Assembly: GCA_036396535.1 (NCBI GenBank)
Contig: DASWKR010000042.1
Span: forward strand, 1-42,451
Direction: 5' to 3'
DNA from: Acidimicrobiia bacterium
GTDB taxonomy: Bacteria > Actinomycetota > Acidimicrobiia > Spongiisociales > UBA5794
Length of the DNA: 42,451 bases
The stretch's first letter is position 1; the number at the start of each line of letters is the position of its first letter. Made by a program: the position numbers and the translations under genes. The notes beneath the pieces are model-generated. The model was not told the DNA's origin. It made no database searches and saw only the letters and a program-made list of their open reading frames with translations. Positions 16,430 to 29,122 of this stretch are shown here, one piece after another.

Positions 16430-19400
16430 CTAGCCGCCGACGTCGCACGACCTCACCGTGATCACGATGGTCCCGGAACGACTCCGGTTGCCGGCTCCAT
16501 CCGTCGCCACGATGGTCGCTTCGAGCGTCGTCCGTTCCCCCTCGGGAACCAGGCCCGCCTCGAAGGTGAACGAGCCGGTGGCATACGGATCGTCGAACGC
16601 CATGGCGGTGACGCCCGTCACCCGGCTGCCATTGAAGACCGCCGACCAGTCGAGCACGACGGAGTCGATCCCCGACGGGTCGCTGACCCTCACGCCGATG
16701 CGGGCCCTGTTCGGGCCCAGCGGGCACGCCTGACCAGGGCCGAGCGCCTCGTACACGACGTAGTTGTCGACGAGAGGTCTGCTGAGCCGGGGCCCCTCGA
16801 CGTCGCGGGCAGTCACGGTGAGTTGAGCGATTGTCGAGTTGCCGGTCGTGTCCGCGGCTCTGATCCGCACCGTGAGCGGGAAGAACCGCCCGAGGCCTCG
16901 CCTCGCCAGCGTGACCTGCCCGGACGCCGCGTCGATCTTCAAGACCTCGTTGGGATCGTCGAGGATCGCATAGGAAACCGAATCCCCCTCGTCCTCGTCG
17001 CGGGCGACCACCGTTCCGACCACCGTGTTGGGAGCGGCCCCCGCCTCGATCGAGAAGGCGTGGTCGTCGAGGAGGGGCGGCTCCGGCACGTCACCGACCG
17101 CCACCGCCACGACGAATCCGGCATGCGCCCCACTGGGGTCGACGACGTTTCCGCGCAGCTCGAGCGCCGCCGACTCCTCGTGGTTGAGGGTTCTCGAGGC
17201 AGTGACGACGCCATCGTCATCGACGGCCAACCAGTCCGTGTCACCGTCGGTCACCACGAAGGTGAGCTCGTCGCCGTCGATGTCGCTCGCCGACAGGGAC
17301 CCGACGGTGGACCCGCTCCCGAGCCCCTCGTCGACGGAGACCCGCAAGTCGCTCGCGGTGGGCGCGTCGTTCACCGGAGCGAGATCGATCGCCATCGTCC
17401 CCGAGGCGATGGCAACGCCGTCCGTGACGTCGTACACGAAGGAGTCGGCGCCGTTGTGATTCGGCGGCGGCCGATAGATGACAGATCCCGCCGCCGAGAT
17501 AGTCGCGGTTCCACCCTGTTCAGTGATGAGCTCACCCGACGTGGCCATGCTCACGGGATCGCCCTCGATGTCGTACCAGCCGGAGAGCGCGTCGAACGAG
17601 ATGTCGACGTCCTCGCGGCCGGACACTTCGAGTGCCCCGTGGCGCGGCGCGTCGTTGCGCCCCTCGACCGTCACGCTCACCGGCACGGTCAGGGTCGCCT
17701 CGCCATCCGAGACCTGGTACGTGAACGAGTCGCTGCCGAAGAAATCGTCGGCGGGCACGTATGCCGTCACGCCTGAGGCGACCACTCCTCCCTGGGCGGT
17801 GAAGCGGTCGAACCCGGTGATCTCTATGGGATCGCCCTCGGGATCGACGATCCCGGCGAGCGGATCGATGCGGAGGACCGAGTCCTCGGCAACCGAGAAC
17901 GATGGTGCGTCGACCAGTCGCGGTGCGTCGTTCACCGGTGTGACGGAGATCCGCACGGTTGCCGATGCCGTGTCACCCTCCGGGCGCGTCACGGTGTAGG
18001 TGAGAGTGTCCTGTCCGTTGAAGTCGGGTGCCGGACGGTATGTGATGGCGGACTCGCCGGCGGTGGCGGTCCCACTGCGAGGAGCGTCCCCGATCGCCAT
18101 CGAGATGCCCGGCACACCGGCGCCGCCATCGTTGGCCAGGACATCGATGACGGCCGTGGTGTCCTCGGCAACGACCACCACGTCGTCGCGGGTGACGAGC
18201 GGTGGCAGCGGCGACCGGGGCTCGTCGGTGGCGGGCGGATCGACGGCAGGGTCGCCTGAGCCGACGGTGGTGTCGGTCGTCTCCCCGTCGTCTCCCACGA
18301 CCGGTCCGGTGCCGCCTGCGAGAACGGTCGTGTCGGAGCTCGGGTCGGCGACGCGATCGATGGCGGCCGGACCGGCCGGAACGTCGTCCGACGTGATCAC
18401 GGCGATGCCGCCTGCTGCGGCGGCCACGAGGAGCAGCACCCCGGCAGCGATCCCGGCGATGCTCTGCGCCCCGGCGCCGACCACCGCGGTCGTGGCGACG
18501 GCCGCCGCCGCGGCGGTCGTCGCGGTCCCGGCCGTCGCCGCGGTCGTCGCGGTACCCGCCGCCGCGCCTGTCGCCCCGGCGCCGGCTGCCGTGGCCCCCC
18601 CTGCACCCGACGCTCCATTGGTGCCGATCGTGGCGGCGGCGCTTGCTGCGGCGCCCGCTGCCGCAGTGGCCGCGGCGGAGCCCCAGATCGATTCCTGAAG
18701 CCCGATGGGAACGGGCACCGCCGCCAATGCAGCGAACAGCTTCAGGGGCACGAACAGCGTCCTGCGGTTCTCGTGGCAGACGCCGCACTCCCTGGCGTGC
18801 TTGTCGACGGACCTGCGCAACTCTGGAGTCAGCTCCGGTCCCCCGTGGGCGTTCACGATGGCGGCCAGCCCCTCGCAGTCGCGACGACCCTTCCGCACGA
18901 GCAGGTACGTCGCCATGGTGTCCGACACCGACTTCTTCATGCGGCTCACCATCGTGTAGGCGTTGCCCTTGGAGACACCGAGCACCTCGGCTATCTCGGC
19001 GCTGTCGAGACCGTGCCTGACGTGGAGGTCCATCACCGTGTACGTGCGCTCGTCGAGCCCGGCCGCCGCCTCCCAGACGATCTCGGCCGCCTCACGAACC
19101 TCGACCTGGTGCACCGGATCGTCGGTGAGGTCGACGGTGATAATGGCGAGCGATATCCGTTCCTCGACCTCGACATCCGTGAACCCGCCGACGGCCACCG
19201 CCCTCTTGGAGCGCTTGATGCGATTGAGGGCGTTGCGGTGAGCGATGGTGAAGAGCCAGCTCTTGAAAGAAGCGGGGTTCTTGAGGTGGCCGAGGCGCTC
19301 GAACGCCTTCACGAAGGTGTCCTGGGCGACGTCGGCGGCTTCGTCGCGATCGCGGAGCAGCCTCGTGAGGAAGTCGAAGATCTCCGCGAAGTAGCGCTCG

Positions 19401-19483
19401 TAGAGGATCGCGAACGCATCGACACCGCCCCGGCGGGCGAGCACGACGAGGTCGGCGTCCTCGGTCGGTAGCGCAGTTGTCAT
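16430..19483 (-). CDS. ECF sigma factor fused to zinc anti-sigma motif, membrane helix and cadherin-like ectodomain
   Basis: A single 1017-residue chain. Residues ~10-95 are sigma region 2 (DEAADVAQDTFVKAFERL, SWLFTIAHRNALNRIKR) and ~135-192 sigma region 4 (LDSAEIAEVLGVSKGNAYT). A zinc anti-sigma motif follows: Cys203, His229, Cys233 and Cys236, with the C-x25-Hx3Cx2C spacing of RsrA-type ZAS domains. A low-complexity Ala/Gly/Thr stretch (~263-339) leads to one membrane helix (~342-363). Outside lie about five cadherin-like/VCBS-type beta domains with NDAP boundaries near 519, 611 and 706, DxDGD near 737, and a terminal domain with two cysteines (920, 1013). The ATG has GGAGAAGG upstream. No separate anti-sigma gene is adjacent. 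Ligand and target promoters are unknown. Confidence 0.93.
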   Translation of the reverse strand: MTTALPTEDADLVVLARRGGVDAFAILYERYFAEIFDFLTRLLRDRDEAADVAQDTFVKAFERLGHLKNPASFKSWLFTIAHRNALNRIKRSKRAVAVGGFTDVEVEERISLAIITVDLTDDPVHQVEVREAAEIVWEAAAGLDERTYTVMDLHVRHGLDSAEIAEVLGVSKGNAYTMVSRMKKSVSDTMATYLLVRKGRRDCEGLAAIVNAHGGPELTPELRRSVDKHARECGVCHENRRTLFVPLKLFAALAAVPVPIGLQESIWGSAAATAAAGAAASAAATIGTNGASGAGGATAAGAGATGAAAGTATTAATAGTATTAAAAAVATTAVVGAGAQSIAGIAAGVLLLVAAAAGGIAVITSDDVPAGPAAIDRVADPSSDTTVLAGGTGPVVGDDGETTDTTVGSGDPAVDPPATDEPRSPLPPLVTRDDVVVVAEDTTAVIDVLANDGGAGVPGISMAIGDAPRSGTATAGESAITYRPAPDFNGQDTLTYTVTRPEGDTASATVRISVTPVNDAPRLVDAPSFSVAEDSVLRIDPLAGIVDPEGDPIEITGFDRFTAQGGVVASGVTAYVPADDFFGSDSFTYQVSDGEATLTVPVSVTVEGRNDAPRHGALEVSGREDVDISFDALSGWYDIEGDPVSMATSGELITEQGGTATISAAGSVIYRPPPNHNGADSFVYDVTDGVAIASGTMAIDLAPVNDAPTASDLRVSVDEGLGSGSTVGSLSASDIDGDELTFVVTDGDTDWLAVDDDGVVTASRTLNHEESAALELRGNVVDPSGAHAGFVVAVAVGDVPEPPLLDDHAFSIEAGAAPNTVVGTVVARDEDEGDSVSYAILDDPNEVLKIDAASGQVTLARRGLGRFFPLTVRIRAADTTGNSTIAQLTVTARDVEGPRLSRPLVDNYVVYEALGPGQACPLGPNRARIGVRVSDPSGIDSVVLDWSAVFNGSRVTGVTAMAFDDPYATGSFTFEAGLVPEGERTTLEATIVATDGAGNRSRSGTIVITVRSCDVGG

Positions 19484-21842: not shown

Positions 21843-22306
21843 GAGGGCTTCACCCGGCCGGCCGAGGCGAGCAGCTCTCGCTCCCGACCCTCCATCAACT
21901 CCGCCTCGGCGTCATCGACGTGGTCGTAGCCCAGTAAGTGGAGGAGCCCGTGGACCACCATCAGCGCCATCTCGTCCTCGAAGCGTACCGCGCCTGCCGC
22001 GGCGTTGGCACGAACGACTGCCGGGCAGACGAGCACGTCACCGAGCACCGGAGGCGGCCCCCCAGGCACCCGCTGCGGCGGCACCCCCGGCGAGAGGTCC
22101 TCGATCGGGAACGAGAGAACATCCGTGGCTCCCAGCTTCCCGAGGTGCCGCTCATTGTGTTCCGACATCGCCTGCTCGTCGACCATCGTGAGCGAGACCT
22201 CCGTGCCTTCGGGGCACAGCTCCGCCGCCAGGACACGCTCAGCCAGCTCCACGAGTTGTCCGGGTTCGAGAGGGTCGTCTTGCTCGTCCGCGAACTGGAC
22301 GCTCAT
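21839..22306 (-). CDS. ybeY: Endoribonuclease YbeY
   Basis: A 155-residue metal-dependent RNase for 16S rRNA 3'-end maturation and ribosome quality control. The zinc motif HGLLHLLGYDH (119-129) with three histidines is complete, and the LGATDVLSFPIED segment is typical. The start ATG overlaps the upstream stop by 4 nt. Neighbouring phoH and era fit the usual genomic cluster. Confidence 0.96.
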   Translation of the reverse strand: MSVQFADEQDDPLEPGQLVELAERVLAAELCPEGTEVSLTMVDEQAMSEHNERHLGKLGATDVLSFPIEDLSPGVPPQRVPGGPPPVLGDVLVCPAVVRANAAAGAVRFEDEMALMVVHGLLHLLGYDHVDDAEAELMEGRERELLASAGRVKPS

Positions 22307-24612
22307 CGATCCTCCGCCCGCGGCCCCGGGAAGCCGGGGTACGGGATGCGGGTGTGGTAGTAGCCGATGAGCGCCTGGACGATGGCGTGCTTGACGCGAG
22401 TCAGGTCTCCGAACGTGAGGTCCGACTGGTCGAGCTGGCCGTCCTCGAGCTTCTCGCCGACGACGGAGTCGACGAGCTTCCTGAGGCTGTCGGCGGTCGG
22501 GTCCTCCTGCTGGGCGAGTGCCCGGGCGGCGCCCTCGACTGCATCGGAGATCATGAGGATCGCCATCTCCTTGCGCCGCGGCTTGTCTCCCGCGTGGCGG
22601 AAGAGCCCCGGGTCGACGCTGGGATCGGCGTCCAATGCCTGGTGATAGAAGTAGCGCATCAGCCCGGTCCCGTGGTGCATCCGGATGCCGTCTGCGACCT
22701 CGTCCGGGATGCGGTACTGGCGGGCGAGCTTGAGGCCGTTCGTCACGTGGTCGCGGATGATGGTCGCAGACTCCTCAGGCGCCAGCTCGTCATGCGGATT
22801 GGACACGCCGAACTGGTTCTCGATGAAATACTGAGGCTGCTCGGTCTTGCCGAGGTCGTGGTAGTAGGCCGAGGCCTGCGCCAGCAAGGCGTTCGCCCCG
22901 ATCGCCCTGGCCGCCTTGCCGGCAAGCGTCCCCACGAGGATGGAGTGGTTGAACGTCCCGGGGGCGTGCTCCTCGAGCAGCCGCAGGGCGGGATGGTTCC
23001 TGTCGGTCAGGTCGAGGAGCGTGATCGTCGTCGTCATCTGGAACAGGTTCTCGAGGAACGAGAGCAATCCCTGCGCGGCCAGGCCGGCGATGATGCCGCC
23101 GATCACGGCGAACATGGCAGCGGTGACGACCGACTCCCACCCCAGGTACATCCAGGCAACGGCCCCGGCGAGCGGGGCGAGCACGAGTGCCGACAAGGTG
23201 ACTGCCAGCCTCAGCTCACGGCGGCTCGACACCGCAGAGACGAAGGCGACGGGGGCGACGGTGGCAGCTGCGGCGTAGACCGTCAGGCCGATGTCTGTCG
23301 TCGAGATGGCGGTGAACGTGGCGACGGGCACCGCCATCAGGACCGCGGTCCTCGGGTCGTAGAGGATGGCGGCGATGTAGCCGAACATCACCGCGGGGAG
23401 CACGAACGCCAACTCCGGATTCGACTCGCCGACGATCAGGTCCGGGATTCGACTTGCGATGGCGGCCAGGATCAGCAGCACGCCGAGTAGCGCGAAGTGC
23501 TTCGGCTGTGACCACAAGCCCGGAGCGATGCGCCACAGGAAGAAGGCCGCCAGCAGCACCGCAATGGCGCCGAGCGCAGAAGCGGCAGATGACGACGTGC
23601 CCTCGCCGGGATCGACGAGGCCGAGCAACTCGATCGCTTCGATCTGCACGGCCGTGAGCTGCTCGCCGGCCCTGACGATCGGGGTGCCGTCGAAGAACGT
23701 GACCTGCACGTCCAACACCGCGTCGGCGGCCGCCTGCTTGGTCTCGTCCGTTGCCTGCTCGTCCAGAACCCTGTTCGGGAGGAGCGAGTCGGCGGCGACG
23801 TCGGCGATGGCCTGCTCGACGTCGGACAAGGTGAACTGCACGCCCAGGTACTCGAAGCCCTCGTAGCCCGGTCCTGGGAAGAACGGCGGGGGGCTTGCCG
23901 TCAGCTGGTTGCGCCGCCCCTCGAGCTCGTTGGCCGAGAACGCCTCGCGAAGCTGCGTGTCCACCGTGTTGACGATCTGCTGCTCGACGAGCGGGTAGAT
24001 GGCGTCCTCTCCCTCCTCGAGCGCGGCCAGGTCGGCGTTCAGCTGACCGAGAAGCACACGGGTTGCACCCTCGTTGCGTGACGGGTGCTGGCTCTCAACG
24101 AGGTCGACCTGGTCCTCAGGAGGCAGGGTGGTCGTCGACGTCGTCGTCGGCGGCTCGGTCGTGGTCGTCGCCTCGGTCGTGGTCGTCGTGGTGTCCTGCT
24201 CCTCCTCAGGAGGGGCGGTCGTGGTCGTGGTCGTGGTCGTCGTCGTGGTCGTCGTCGTGGTCGTCGTCAAGGACACCTCGGCGTCGCCTCCGAGTGGGGC
24301 CGACCTGAGGGCGGCGAAGTAGCGCGCCAGCGAGGCCTCCACGGTCTGTTGAACGGAGGGGTCCACGCGGAACACCGAGGGCTCGTTGAGCCGCGCCAAC
24401 TCGCGCTGTTGCTCGGTCGCACCCTCGTCGACGACCTGGATCGTCGAAGGTGCGAGGAAGTCGACGGGCGACGGCTCGCCGAGCACGAGGCTGATCGCAG
24501 GAGACGGCTCCGGCCTGCCGATCGTCAGCGACAGCGCCACGAACAGGACGGTCACGATGATCACGCCGATGTTGAGCACGACGTTGCGCTTGCTCGTGCG
24601 CTCGGAGGTCAC
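22303..24612 (-). CDS. 7TM-HD phosphohydrolase (PgpH/YqfF-like, probable c-di-AMP phosphodiesterase)
   Basis: A 769-residue membrane enzyme. One N-terminal helix (about 9-29) is followed by a long outside domain (about 30-345), a block of membrane helices (about 350-560) and a cytoplasmic HD domain with ASAYYHDLGKTEQPQYF, where HD is catalytic, IIRDHVTNG and IRMHHGTG. This is the 7TMR-HDED plus HDIG layout of PgpH, which cleaves c-di-AMP; activity here is by homology. The outside domain carries an unusual run of 17 threonines (residues 116-132) followed by further Thr-rich stretches split by PPEEEQD and EPP. The GTG start overlaps the phoH stop by 4 nt. Confidence 0.92.
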   Translation of the reverse strand: MTSERTSKRNVVLNIGVIIVTVLFVALSLTIGRPEPSPAISLVLGEPSPVDFLAPSTIQVVDEGATEQQRELARLNEPSVFRVDPSVQQTVEASLARYFAALRSAPLGGDAEVSLTTTTTTTTTTTTTTTTTAPPEEEQDTTTTTTEATTTTEPPTTTSTTTLPPEDQVDLVESQHPSRNEGATRVLLGQLNADLAALEEGEDAIYPLVEQQIVNTVDTQLREAFSANELEGRRNQLTASPPPFFPGPGYEGFEYLGVQFTLSDVEQAIADVAADSLLPNRVLDEQATDETKQAAADAVLDVQVTFFDGTPIVRAGEQLTAVQIEAIELLGLVDPGEGTSSSAASALGAIAVLLAAFFLWRIAPGLWSQPKHFALLGVLLILAAIASRIPDLIVGESNPELAFVLPAVMFGYIAAILYDPRTAVLMAVPVATFTAISTTDIGLTVYAAAATVAPVAFVSAVSSRRELRLAVTLSALVLAPLAGAVAWMYLGWESVVTAAMFAVIGGIIAGLAAQGLLSFLENLFQMTTTITLLDLTDRNHPALRLLEEHAPGTFNHSILVGTLAGKAARAIGANALLAQASAYYHDLGKTEQPQYFIENQFGVSNPHDELAPEESATIIRDHVTNGLKLARQYRIPDEVADGIRMHHGTGLMRYFYHQALDADPSVDPGLFRHAGDKPRRKEMAILMISDAVEGAARALAQQEDPTADSLRKLVDSVVGEKLEDGQLDQSDLTFGDLTRVKHAIVQALIGYYHTRIPYPGFPGPRAEDR
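24217..24267. repeat. Simple-sequence repeat encoding 17 threonines
   Basis: Fifty-one bases of ACG/ACC codons on the minus strand inside the PgpH-like gene. Every unit is three bases, so slippage would change linker length without breaking the frame. Confidence 0.85.
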
Positions 24613-25604
24613 GGCGTCGAACCCTTCGCCGCGGTTTCCGCCTCAAATCGGCTGTATGCCTCGACGATGGCTGCAACGATGCGGTGGCGAACCACGTCGT
24701 CACCCGTGAGCTCCCGGAATGCCACGCCCGGGACGTCGTTCAGGACGCGGCGCACGACCCGCAGCCCGGACTGCCTGCCGTCCGACAGATCGACCTGCGT
24801 GACGTCCCCCGTCACCACCATCTTCGAATTGAACCCGAGCCTGGTGAGGAACATCTTCATCTGCTCAGGCGACGTGTTCTGAGCCTCGTCGAGCACGATG
24901 AAGGCGTCGTTGAGCGTCCTGCCCCGCATGTAGGCGAGCGGGGCGATCTCGATGGTGCCGCGCTCCATGAGCCGAGCCGTCTCCTCCGGGCCGAGCATCT
25001 CGTACAGGGCGTCGTACAACGGGCGGAGGTAGGGATCGACCTTGGCAGCCAGGTCGCCCGGCAAGAAACCGAGACGCTCACCCGCCTCGACGGCGGGCCG
25101 GGTGAGCACGATCCGCCGCACGGACCCGCTCAGCAGGGCCTCGACGGCGCACGCCATCGCCAGGTACGTCTTGCCGGTGCCGGCGGGGCCGACGCCGAAG
25201 ATCATGGTGTTCTCCCTGACGGCATCCACGTACTGCTTCTGGCCGAGTGTCTTGGCACGAACCACCTTGCCGCGCCCCACCTTGATGGAGTCGGTGAAGA
25301 TCCCGGAAGGAGACGGAACGTCCTTCTTGACGAGTTGGATGACCCGCTCGACCCGATCGGTGTCCAGGCGCTCGCCCTCCTGGATCAGGATGAGCAGCTC
25401 GTCGAACACGGTGCGAACCATGTCGGCATCGTCTCCCGGCCCGGCGATGTCGACCTCGTTGCCCCGGGCGACGATCCGGGCATGCGGGAAGGCGCGCTCG
25501 ACCTGGCGCATGAACGCGTCTCTCTCGCCGAGGAGATCAACCATGAGGTGGTTGCTCGGCACTCGCAGTCGTATCTCGGTTGGAGCAGACGTCACGCCAG
25601 CCAC
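24609..25604 (-). CDS. phoH: PhoH-family ATPase
   Basis: A 331-residue PhoH-like (YbeZ-type) P-loop ATPase. An N-terminal KH-like region (about 15-90) precedes the Walker A motif GPAGTGKT (139-146), the segment LTRPAVEAGERLGFLPGDL, and Walker B IVLDEAQN (236-243). The C-terminal TGDVTQVDL completes the family signature. It probably works on RNA with YbeY in rRNA processing. The GTG at 25604 is used; a GTG three codons in is an alternative. It heads the operon; its 153-bp upstream gap shows a TATCAT box but no clear -35. Confidence 0.95.
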   Translation of the reverse strand: MAGVTSAPTEIRLRVPSNHLMVDLLGERDAFMRQVERAFPHARIVARGNEVDIAGPGDDADMVRTVFDELLILIQEGERLDTDRVERVIQLVKKDVPSPSGIFTDSIKVGRGKVVRAKTLGQKQYVDAVRENTMIFGVGPAGTGKTYLAMACAVEALLSGSVRRIVLTRPAVEAGERLGFLPGDLAAKVDPYLRPLYDALYEMLGPEETARLMERGTIEIAPLAYMRGRTLNDAFIVLDEAQNTSPEQMKMFLTRLGFNSKMVVTGDVTQVDLSDGRQSGLRVVRRVLNDVPGVAFRELTGDDVVRHRIVAAIVEAYSRFEAETAAKGSTP

Positions 25605-25757: not shown

Positions 25758-26234
25758 TCAATCACCCTCGGCGGTCACTCCGAGCTGCGTGAGACGCTGA
25801 CTGAAGCCCTGCTCGCTCTGATCGAGGAGCATTGCCAGCGTCCTCAAGTCGTTGCTGCGGATGGTCAGCACCTTGCCGTTGAAATCCTGGCGCAGCATCT
25901 GGATGCCTCGCAGGAACCTCTCCACGACAATGGCGTCGGGACCCGAGAGGTTCTCCACCCGGTTCAGGTCGATCGTCAGGCCACCCGTAGGCAGCGATGA
26001 AGCCTGCTGCTCCGAATCGTCCTGTGGGAGCAGTTGACCGATCGGCACCGAGTAGAACTCGGCGAGTCGCTGGAGGCGGGGCAGCGAAAGGCTGCGCTCG
26101 CCGCGTTCGTAGGCCCCGAGGACGGCGGCCTTGAACTCTTGCTCCGACAGCCGTTGCACGTCTTGCAGGGACAGACCACGCTGCTTCCGGATCGAGCGGA
26201 GCCGCTTGCCCACCTGCTCGTTGTAGCTCGGCAC
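25758..26234 (-). CDS. bldD: BldD-like transcriptional regulator with c-di-GMP-binding signature
   Basis: A 158-residue regulator. Residues 5-65 are an XRE-type helix-turn-helix (GKRLRSIRKQRGLSLQDVQ, LGAYERGERSLSLPRLQ). The C-terminal domain carries RQDFNGKVLTIRSNDLRTLA, which matches the Streptomyces BldD c-di-GMP signature RxD-x8-RxxD exactly at Arg115, Asp117, Arg126 and Asp129. In Streptomyces, c-di-GMP drives BldD dimerisation and repression of development genes; what it controls here is unknown. The GTG at 26234 has AGGAGGG upstream. A TATCAT -10-like box (26293-26298) and a 7-bp inverted repeat sit before it. Not an obvious operon partner of rsmE, 133 bp upstream. Confidence 0.88.
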   Translation of the reverse strand: MPSYNEQVGKRLRSIRKQRGLSLQDVQRLSEQEFKAAVLGAYERGERSLSLPRLQRLAEFYSVPIGQLLPQDDSEQQASSLPTGGLTIDLNRVENLSGPDAIVVERFLRGIQMLRQDFNGKVLTIRSNDLRTLAMLLDQSEQGFSQRLTQLGVTAEGD

Positions 26235-26257
26235 ACACCCTCCTAAGGCCCAGCACT

Positions 26258-26282
26258 GAGCGCGGTCACTAAGAACGCGCTC
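26258..26282. promoter_or_regulatory. Inverted repeat near the predicted bldD start site
   Basis: GAGCGCG (26258-26264) and CGCGCTC (26276-26282) are perfect arms 11 bp apart. They lie just after a TATCAT box (26293-26298, minus strand), where an autoregulatory operator could act. It matches the Streptomyces BldD box only in part, so the assignment is by position. Confidence 0.35.
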
Positions 26283-26303
26283 GGTAGGCGTGATGATAGT
26301 CGC

Positions 26304-26381
26304 GATGACTACTCCCTCGTCGGATTTTGCCCACGCGGCACAGGGATTTCCACAACGCCGAAGATGACTAGTCCCTCGACG
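26304..26381. repeat. Pair of near-identical 19-bp direct repeats at the rsmE 3' end
   Basis: GATGACTACTCCCTCGTCG (26304-26322) and GATGACTAGTCCCTCGACG (26363-26381) differ at two positions. The second overlaps the rsmE stop codon; the first lies 59 bp further on. Possibly a small local duplication. Confidence 0.5.
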
Positions 26382-27036
26382 CTGCCCGCCCGACTGCGAG
26401 GGCCATCGCTGCGGCGACGATCGCAGCCGTCTCGGTACGGAGAATGGTCGGGCCGAGGCTGACCCGAATCCAGTCTGGGGCAGCCTCGTCGTCGGCCAAT
26501 CCGCCCTCCGGTCCGACGACGATCGTCACGCGCTCGCCGGGCGCCGGCATGGGCCCGCCATCGCGATCGCACAGGAGCACGAGCCCGCCGAGTCCGAGAC
26601 GATCCAGGCCGGCGCCTTCACGAACGACCATGAGATGGCTGCCTCGCGACTGCTCGAGAGCGGAAACGGCCCATGCCTCGGACTTGCGGTGCTGCGGTAG
26701 GCGCGCCTGTGAGTGCTTGCTCGTCGTCCACGCCAGTTCCGTGACCCCGAGCTCGGCGGCCTTCTCGACCACGAATCGCTGGCGGTCGGACGAGTGGGGG
26801 GCGGCTACGACGAGCGTCACGGCAGGCGACGACGCCGCCACGTCCGTTTCCTCGCCGCGCTCGACGATCCCGGCGTGATAGCAGCCCGACCCGAACGTGC
26901 CGTTCCCGTCGGTGTACGTGACGGCGCTGTCGGCGCGCCGCAGGACCGTTTCCAGGTGACTTCGAGTGGCGGCCGCGACTTCGAGCAACTCGGCCGCCCA
27001 GGGTCGCGGAAGCAGGAGGTGGGGAACGTGGGCCAT
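26368..27036 (-). CDS. rsmE: 16S rRNA m3U1498 methyltransferase RsmE
   Basis: A 222-residue SPOUT-class methyltransferase. The trefoil-knot motifs are VGPEGGLADDE and SLGPTILRTETAAIVAA; the N-terminal PUA-like part includes HAGIVERGEE. The ATG at 27036 overlaps the dnaJ stop (TGATG); a TTG one codon earlier is possible. Position after dnaJ is the common arrangement. It ends the hrcA-dnaJ-rsmE unit. Confidence 0.94.
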   Translation of the reverse strand: MAHVPHLLLPRPWAAELLEVAAATRSHLETVLRRADSAVTYTDGNGTFGSGCYHAGIVERGEETDVAASSPAVTLVVAAPHSSDRQRFVVEKAAELGVTELAWTTSKHSQARLPQHRKSEAWAVSALEQSRGSHLMVVREGAGLDRLGLGGLVLLCDRDGGPMPAPGERVTIVVGPEGGLADDEAAPDWIRVSLGPTILRTETAAIVAAAMALAVGRAASRD

Positions 27037-28118
27037 CAACGAGAGCGGCGACGCCGCCTGCCTCGAGCGACCGGCGTCTCTCCCAAGGCCTCGGCGAGCG
27101 CACGCAGAGCGGTCTCCTGCTCCTCGCTCAGCTCGGAGGGAACCACCACGTCGACGACGACGATGAGGTCGCCGCGCCCTCGCCGGCGTAGCGCCGGCAT
27201 GCCGCGCCGCGCCATCCTGAACACCGTGCCCGGCTGCGTGCCCGGCGGGATGTCGATCTCGATGGGTTCCTGGTCGATTTGTGGAACGGCCACCACCGCC
27301 CCGAGAGAGGCCTCTGCGATGCCGACTCGAACCGTGTGCCGCAGGTCGTCGCCCAGGCGCTCGAAGCGGGGATCGGGAGCCACCCGGAGCTGCACGTACA
27401 GGTCGCCCGGGAGCGACCCGTTCTGCCCGGCGCCGCCCCGGCCCGCCAACCGGAGGCGCGTCCCGTCATCGACGCCGGCCGGGATCTCGACGGTGACCGT
27501 CACCTCGTCGTCGACGATCCCCGACCCGCGACACCGTCGGCATGGATCCTCGATGATCGAGCCGCGGCCCCGACAGGTGGCGCACGTCGTCACGGTCGTC
27601 ATCGAGCCCAGAAACGTCTGCCGGTTGACCTGAACCTGGCCGTGCCCGCCGCACGTCGTGCAACGGATGGGGTCGTGCCCCGGCTCGGCGCCGCTGCCCG
27701 AGCAGACCTCGCACCTCTGAGGAGCGACGTACGTGACCTCGCGACTCGCGCCTGCTGCGGCGCGCTCGAGCGACAACTCGATGACCACCGCGACGTCGCG
27801 TCCCCGAGCCGCGCTCGCCCGCCCCGCCCCTCCGAATCCCGCTCCGCCGAAGAACTGTTGGAGTATCTCGTCGAGACCCGCGAAGTTGGTGAACAGGTCG
27901 CCGATGTTCAGTTGGTCGCCCCGGTCGAATGCGGCGCGGCGTTGCGGGTCGGAGAGGACCTCGTATGCCTCGGCGATCTCCCTGAAGCGGGCCTCGGCGG
28001 TCGGGTCGCCTGGATTGGCGTCGGGATGGCTCTCCCTGGCGAGCTTCCTGAATGCCTTCTTCAGCTCTTCGGGCGATGCATCGCGGCCCACCCCGAGGAT
28101 GTCGTAATAGTCCTTCAT
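27036..28118 (-). CDS. dnaJ: Chaperone DnaJ
   Basis: A 360-residue type I J-protein. The J domain (about 1-68) contains the HPD tripeptide in [10 protein letters not shown]. The zinc-finger region has four CxxCxGxG-like repeats ([32 protein letters not shown]). The Gly/Phe linker is short ([13 protein letters not shown]). Its C-terminal substrate domain is present. It starts 2 nt after the hrcA stop, so both should be under the CIRCE-like operator upstream. Confidence 0.97.
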
Positions 28119-28120
28119 CC

Positions 28121-29122
28121 TCAGTGCCCGAGACGATCCTCGAGACCCTCTCCGACCTGCTCGACGATCCGAATCGTCCTGCGGTAGTCCATGCGGGTGG
28201 GCCCGAGGACGCCGACCCTGCCGACCCCGCTCTCGCCGGCGCCGTAACTGGCGGCGACAACCGCGATGTCGAGCTCTTCGACGTTGAACTCGCTGCCGAA
28301 CCGGACGGATGTGCCCTCCGGCGCGTCTCCGAGGATCTGGCGCATCTCACCCTCGCGCTCGAGGAGGCTGAGGATCGATTGCACGTTGGCGAGGTCCTCC
28401 CAGAGGGATGCCAGCTGGCTCGTCCCACCCACATACAGATCGCTCGTCGACATCTCGGCCCCGGCAAGCGAGCCGGCAACCGTTGTCACGAGCCCGGCGA
28501 CACGGTCCGGCACGTCACTCTGTCCGGTCGCCGCCAGTTCGTCCTGACCGGCCTTGATCGTCCTGCCGACGAACATGCGCTCGAGGACGTCTTCGGCGTC
28601 CATCAGGTCGGCGGCGGTCGGCGACCGCTGCAGTCGGACGACCTCCTGGTTGACGCGCCCTGATTGCGCGACGGTCACCGTCAGGACGACGTTGGGGGCA
28701 ACCGGGACGAGGTGGATACCGAGGATCGTCTCCGAGCCGAAGCCGGGGCCCATCACGATGGCCGGGTAGTGTGCCAGGTCTGACAGCAGGCCGGTCGTCT
28801 CCTTGAGCAGCTTGCTCAGCTCGCTGTGCATGTCGGCGAAGAACCCCTCGATGCGGGCTCTCGTGGCCGACCGGAGCTGGGCAGGCGAGCAGTGGTCGAC
28901 GTAGAACCGGTAGCCCGCCTGAGTCGGCACCCTGCCCGCCGACGTGTGCGGCTGGACCACGAACCCATACGACTCGAGCCGCGCCAGATCGTTGCGGACG
29001 GTGGCACTCGAGACGGGGAGGCCGCTGCGATCGAGGATCGTCTGCGAGCTGACCGGCTCGCCGGTGCGGATGTACTCCTCGACGAGTACCTGCAGGATGT
29101 GCGACCTGCGGTCATCGAGCAT
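28121..29122 (-). CDS. hrcA: Heat-shock transcriptional repressor HrcA
   Basis: A 333-residue repressor of chaperone genes. The winged-helix N-terminus is typical: [36 protein letters not shown] and [18 protein letters not shown]. The GAF-like middle and C-terminal domains follow with normal length. It binds CIRCE operators; a close CIRCE match lies 10 bp upstream of its ATG and overlaps the end of hemW. No strong ribosome-binding site is seen. It is followed by dnaJ and rsmE. Confidence 0.96.

Follow-up and report, generated by a model that had tools for sequence, protein, structure and literature searches.

In Streptomyces, spore formation is timed by BldD, a repressor under c-di-GMP control and the textbook master switch of development. 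According to the available text of Tschowri et al. (2014, PMC4151990), the protein contacts c-di-GMP through Lys84, Ile110, Arg114, Asp116, Asn118, Ser123, Arg125, Asp128 and Arg130. Lys84 is a phosphate contact, every homologue in that study has Lys or Arg at this position, and the operator, or BldD box, reads TNAC-N5-GTNA. The gene is also recognized outside Streptomyces. In the portion of Chandra and Chater (2013, PMC4255298) available to us, Acidimicrobium has a convincing bldD orthologue, bldD is placed in very early actinobacteria with many later losses, and a growth and stationary-phase role is proposed for it in simpler organisms. The main idea of an ancient, pre-sporulation BldD is therefore already in print. 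The locus described here comes from the same class and leads to the same claim that bldD predates sporulation; unlike the present study, that paper never uses the word c-di-GMP, and its available text analyses neither the ligand site nor the operator in the class. A parallel is offered by RsiG-WhiG (PMC8325347), a Streptomyces c-di-GMP developmental switch of which the deep actinobacterial lineage Rubrobacter has an older form, although that system is an anti-sigma/sigma pair and thus another kind of protein. Among the largely open-access papers searched, we found no further title that deals with BldD in Acidimicrobiia or Ilumatobacter.

Here we compare these systems with a bldD-like gene in a 42,451-nucleotide stretch of Acidimicrobiia DNA (hereafter the window). 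The gene (25758..26234, reverse strand) encodes 158 amino acids from a GTG start and is preceded by a Shine-Dalgarno sequence, AGGAGG, at 26239..26244 on the same strand. As in BldD of S. venezuelae and S. coelicolor, an N-terminal helix-turn-helix (HTH) DNA-binding domain (residues 3-70; 26025..26228, reverse strand) is joined to a predicted C-terminal c-di-GMP-binding domain (residues 86-153; 25776..25979, reverse strand). Pfam reports HTH_3 at 36.9 bits against a cut-off of 23, and BldD-like_C (PF21179) at 70.2 bits against a cut-off of 27 (E 1.3e-19). Phmmer searches of the PDB match the BldD DNA-binding domain 2ewt (E 4.8e-17) and, at E about 1e-10, the BldD C-terminal domain entries. The predicted fold agrees for both parts: an AlphaFold2 model built from 23 aligned rows (mean pLDDT 90.4) has BldD as its best PDB match for each domain, at 0.6-1.8 A to 4ob4/2ewt for the HTH and 1.5-2.3 A to the c-di-GMP complexes 4oay/4oaz for the C-terminal domain. 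The protein scores 148.3 bits on the NCBIfam BldD equivalog model NF050110, under the cut-off of 250, and we therefore term it a BldD-family protein and not a BldD equivalog. It is a BldD-type family member in a lineage without sign of the Streptomyces spore programme.

A preliminary description of this DNA had proposed a BldD homologue with an intact RxD-x8-RxxD signature formed by Arg115, Asp117, Arg126 and Asp129. The Pfam domains bear this out, and the translated reading frame places the four residues exactly there, in the stretch RQD-FNGKVLTI-RSND. Motif 1 (R115-Q-D117; 25884..25892) and motif 2 (R126-S-N-D129; 25848..25859), both on the reverse strand, each carry two charged residues that are invariant in the 23-row alignment. 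The signature alone was rejected as evidence, since a six-frame search of the window matches the bare pattern seven times and six of these are chance occurrences at other places; it is meaningful because it lies inside the BldD-like_C domain, where solved BldD structures bind c-di-GMP. The further statement that the surrounding sequence matches closely holds near the motif, at 18 of 26 residues counted from the first Arg, but not for the protein as a whole, which is 42% identical to a Streptomyces-type BldD (locus L011) and falls short of the equivalog cut-off.

Alignment of the nine published contacts gives a more detailed comparison. Seven are identical in the window protein—all four base-reading residues of the signature plus the equivalents of Ile110, Asn118 and Arg130—while Ser123 is conservatively replaced by Thr124 and Lys84 is lost to Gly85. 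Our comparison set comprised 149 of 152 profile matches that could be parsed (three had no start by the rule used), one of the 149 being the window itself. The 14 highest-scoring loci (L002-L015) are called Streptomyces-type because the DNA-binding domain of L011, compared by eye, has exactly the sequence seen in the BldD crystal structure. Lys or Arg occupies position 84 in all 14 of these, in 14/24 rows from the class, in 18/30 other rows from the phylum and in 35/79 rows of the named loci. Much less variation is seen at the four base-reading positions. Of 70 loci fetched through PF21179 matches in a Pfam-based phylum search, 69 retain RxD-x8-RxxD, the exception being L046 (genome G199). The 80 named loci were left out of the signature counts because the patterns used to fetch them include motif 1. 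Likewise, the 16/20 found with the signature among 20 further regions is not a survey figure, since these were hand-picked to include weak matches.

These residues bear on the first alternative, in which a DNA-binding BldD-like protein retains the fold and the motif, yet has a low affinity for c-di-GMP or takes up fewer molecules of it, so that the ligand tunes the protein and does not switch it. The change from Lys84 to Gly85 would fit such a protein, as would the incomplete retention of Lys or Arg at this position in the class and named rows, and PDB entries of D116A complexes with two c-di-GMP, titled as intermediates, imply that partial occupancy is possible in this fold. Yet the four base readers are unchanged, as are the contacts made by Ile, Asn and Arg, and the base readers persist in a family whose members are otherwise 42-68% identical to the window protein. 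We regard weak binding as a possible but doubtful alternative to a full ligand switch.

The family is found far more widely than a sporulation marker. Among 396 genomes sampled from the phylum, 115 carry BldD-like_C with an E-value no higher than 0.001, and in 111 the score exceeds the cut-off. SsgA, which marks sporulation of the Streptomyces type, exceeded its own cut-off in 13/396 of the same genomes; all 13 are BldD-positive, leaving 102 of the 115 BldD-positive genomes without SsgA. Unlike Streptomyces, the window's own genome yielded no match to SsgA. Within Acidimicrobiia, BldD was present in 112 of 198 genomes. Some lineages appear to have undergone local expansion: in the phylum draw, several genomes from f23 and f71, two of its families, have three to five BldD-like_C matches, with five each in G226 and G289.

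Across both draws, BldD never occurred without a GGDEF domain. The phylum draw (n=396) contained 115 genomes with BldD and GGDEF, 242 with GGDEF alone, 39 with neither and none with BldD alone; the class draw (n=198) contained 112, 22, 64 and none, respectively. Co-occurrence was tested by Fisher's test, with p-values that take no account of shared ancestry, and GGDEF-less genomes cluster in families such as f82, f79 and f8, so that these counts represent few independent events. The window's own genome has six GGDEF matches and four EAL matches. Of the six GGDEF proteins, five of which were checked with Pfam, four have an intact motif and a further one reads GGDDF in a partial GGDEF domain fused to a response-regulator domain; the EAL motif is present in four proteins. 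A partial-GGDEF protein of about 310-370 amino acids recurs in the class, as the response-regulator fusion of the window's own genome (L157) and as L213, L214, L216 and L217. It is the sole GGDEF match in the f3 genomes G177, G420, G438 and G534, all of which are without BldD.

The same data weigh on a second alternative, that the protein has become independent of c-di-GMP, as a constitutive repressor or a protein of the nucleoid type, and carries the signature as an unused inheritance. There are indeed homologues in which motif 1 is broken and the HTH persists, namely L046 (G199), L196 (G526) and both copies in G401 (L197 and L198). Two of the genomes involved run against a simple rule, since G199 has nine GGDEF matches and G401 has ten. 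Taking a best E above 1e-20 as weak, and leaving out G462, whose match is cut by a contig end, 11 class genomes have weak or partial GGDEF matches only, and BldD is found in two of them. Motif 1 is broken in one, G526, and intact in the other, G441, which has a partial GGDEF match only. Against constitutive action stand the near invariance of the signature, the absence of BldD wherever GGDEF is absent, and the fact that G526 retains no more than partial or weak GGDEF matches. We therefore judge it improbable for the window protein. Overall, the broken-motif homologues, together with genomes that have lost GGDEF, represent natural experiments on ligand dependence.

Phylogeny and gene order both point to long residence in the class. 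In a 76-row tree (quick method, unrooted), the window protein belongs to a 12-row Acidimicrobiia cluster (SH-aLRT 99). A larger set of 45 rows around this cluster (support 88) takes in almost every Acidimicrobiia row, together with six from other families. The Streptomyces-type proteins fall across the branch from this set, and very long branches lead to L071, L057, L046 and L037. The closest fetched relatives, at 75-78% identity, come from metagenome-assembled genomes, most of which bear Acidimicrobiia or Acidimicrobiaceae in their titles.

The gene stands in a reverse-strand run with hrcA (28121..29122; over the TIGR00331 cut-off), dnaJ (27036..28118; Pfam and NCBIfam), an rsmE-like gene directly upstream (26368..27039; Pfam Methyltrans_RNA) and a phoH-like gene downstream (24609..25604; Pfam). 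The hrcA-dnaJ-bldD neighbourhood is conserved, with dnaJ near bldD in 22 and hrcA in 21 of 24 class loci. The constancy of RsmE is less certain, as tblastn with the window's protein detected it in only 5/24, and the gene after bldD is HemW in some loci and PhoH in others. Streptomyces BldD has other surroundings: none of the above genes was found in the 14 Streptomyces-type loci, which extend no further than about 1.25 kb upstream and 1.5 kb downstream, and in one of them (L010) the neighbour is a carbamoyltransferase gene. Such a conserved neighbourhood speaks for vertical inheritance. Recent horizontal transfer from Streptomyces-like bacteria, for which we found nothing beyond BldD being known chiefly from actinomycetes that sporulate, is highly implausible given the strongly supported nesting in Acidimicrobiia, the close relatives there and a neighbourhood that is the class's own and not of the L010 type.

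Judged from sequence comparison, then, the window bldD is an old resident of Acidimicrobiia and not a transfer from Streptomyces; the preliminary description had named such a transfer as what would overturn its reading, and the tree does not show one. Its proposal of an older, non-developmental role stands in part. An old origin independent of sporulation is supported by the tree and by the contrast between SsgA (13/396) and BldD (111/396), but the setting among housekeeping genes proves nothing about function. Elsewhere in the window, a 7TMR-HD protein with 7TMR-HDED, 7TM and HD domains is encoded between phoH and ybeY (22303-24612, reverse strand) and recurs near bldD in 4/24 class and 14/79 named loci; the 7TMR-HD family includes c-di-AMP phosphodiesterases. 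A 1017-residue reading frame (16430-19483, reverse strand) has N-terminal sigma-70 regions 2 and 4 followed by Big_9 and cadherin-like repeats, that is, a sigma factor fused to surface-type domains. The only RNA family in the window is a single tRNA.

We also searched for the BldD operator. As a positive control, a perfect box within 250 bases before bldD was found in 14 of 14 Streptomyces-type loci, with 0.48 expected from dinucleotide shuffles. The other phylum loci had it in 7/30 (0.78 expected) and the named loci in 13/79 (2.17 expected), compared with 2/20 for the class (0.55 expected) and 0/5 for the window's order. Ranking of 64 dyads of the same shape put TAC half-sites first in the Streptomyces-type and other-phylum loci; in Acidimicrobiia they rank second, behind the one-base variant CAC. 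A widened box, YNAC-N5-GTNR, picked after CAC was seen to rank first in Acidimicrobiia, occurs in 50 of 110 de-duplicated Acidimicrobiia bldD upstream regions, where 8.05 are expected from the same loci. These 110 exclude the divergent second copies L037, L055 and L057 and loci L197, L198, L208 and L209, as well as any region of less than 150 bases and any that duplicates another over its last 80 bases. Among the 13 spacings tested (0-12), a spacing of 5 gave the highest count, the same 50/110; half-sites at a spacing of 8 are also raised (33/110). In windows of one width, the widened box precedes 55/110 bldD genes and 23/286 copies of five neighbour control genes, which may lie inside operons, and the strict box 14/110 and 0/286, respectively.

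This enrichment suggests that autoregulation, with an operator of the BldD-box type as in Streptomyces, is conserved in many bldD genes of Acidimicrobiia. Loci close to the lineage of the window that carry the palindrome include L072, L204, L205 and L206. The window itself differs from these relatives, as from Streptomyces. Its bldD leader and promoter region (26235..26367, reverse strand) has no BldD-box-like site; neither the strict nor the widened box occurs within 600 bases upstream of bldD, and a sigma-70-like promoter gave no match in 26235..26367. Autoregulation was thus looked for in this very genome and not found, and in a promoter without a site it is not supported here. Two perfect boxes elsewhere in the window (16374 and 17241) are at chance level, with about 2.5 expected in 42 kb, and are not claimed as targets; the six fixed bases of the box give hundreds of chance matches at whole-genome scale. 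Two near-identical 16-base stretches (26304-26319 and 26363-26378), noticed by eye and absent from the repeat-finder list, differ at one position and lie about 60 bases apart, one before bldD and the other over the rsmE stop.

We conclude with good confidence that the window encodes a vertically inherited Acidimicrobiia BldD homologue, which most likely works as Streptomyces BldD does. At high c-di-GMP, the ligand would bridge two C-terminal domains through RxD-x8-RxxD, and the bridged domains would bring the HTH domains together as a pair. The resulting dimer may then sit as a repressor on [C/T]NAC-N5-GTN[G/A] operators, to be released when c-di-GMP falls, and in many relatives its own promoter is probably among the targets. 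The Streptomyces spore programme as known is an unlikely output, because no SsgA match was found; the regulon would probably serve a growth-state or lifestyle switch instead. Several observations count against this reading: the missing operator in the window's own promoter, Gly85 in place of Lys84, the low NCBIfam score, the raised count at an operator spacing of 8, the broken motif 1 in the GGDEF-rich genomes G199 and G401, and the intact signature in G441 despite its partial GGDEF match.

Looking further back, we somewhat favor a scenario in which the common ancestor of Acidimicrobiia and Streptomyces, predating the Streptomyces spore programme, already had a complete working BldD circuit, made up of a c-di-GMP-binding repressor, a palindromic operator and autoregulatory feedback. 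The circuit would later have taken control of sporulation, and loss of c-di-GMP synthesis would have brought loss of BldD. The ligand-site survey, the co-absence with GGDEF and the operator enrichment in Acidimicrobiia were not met in the literature we found and constitute new support for the published idea. Wide conservation of the ligand site and of a BldD-like operator places an ancient BldD on firmer ground. Finally, the named bldD loci include cultured members, Ilumatobacter nonamiensis and Aciditerrimonas ferrireducens. Should this regulator, with its ligand site and operator, prove functional in Acidimicrobiia, where the spore programme is not seen, the ancestral output of BldD would become testable.
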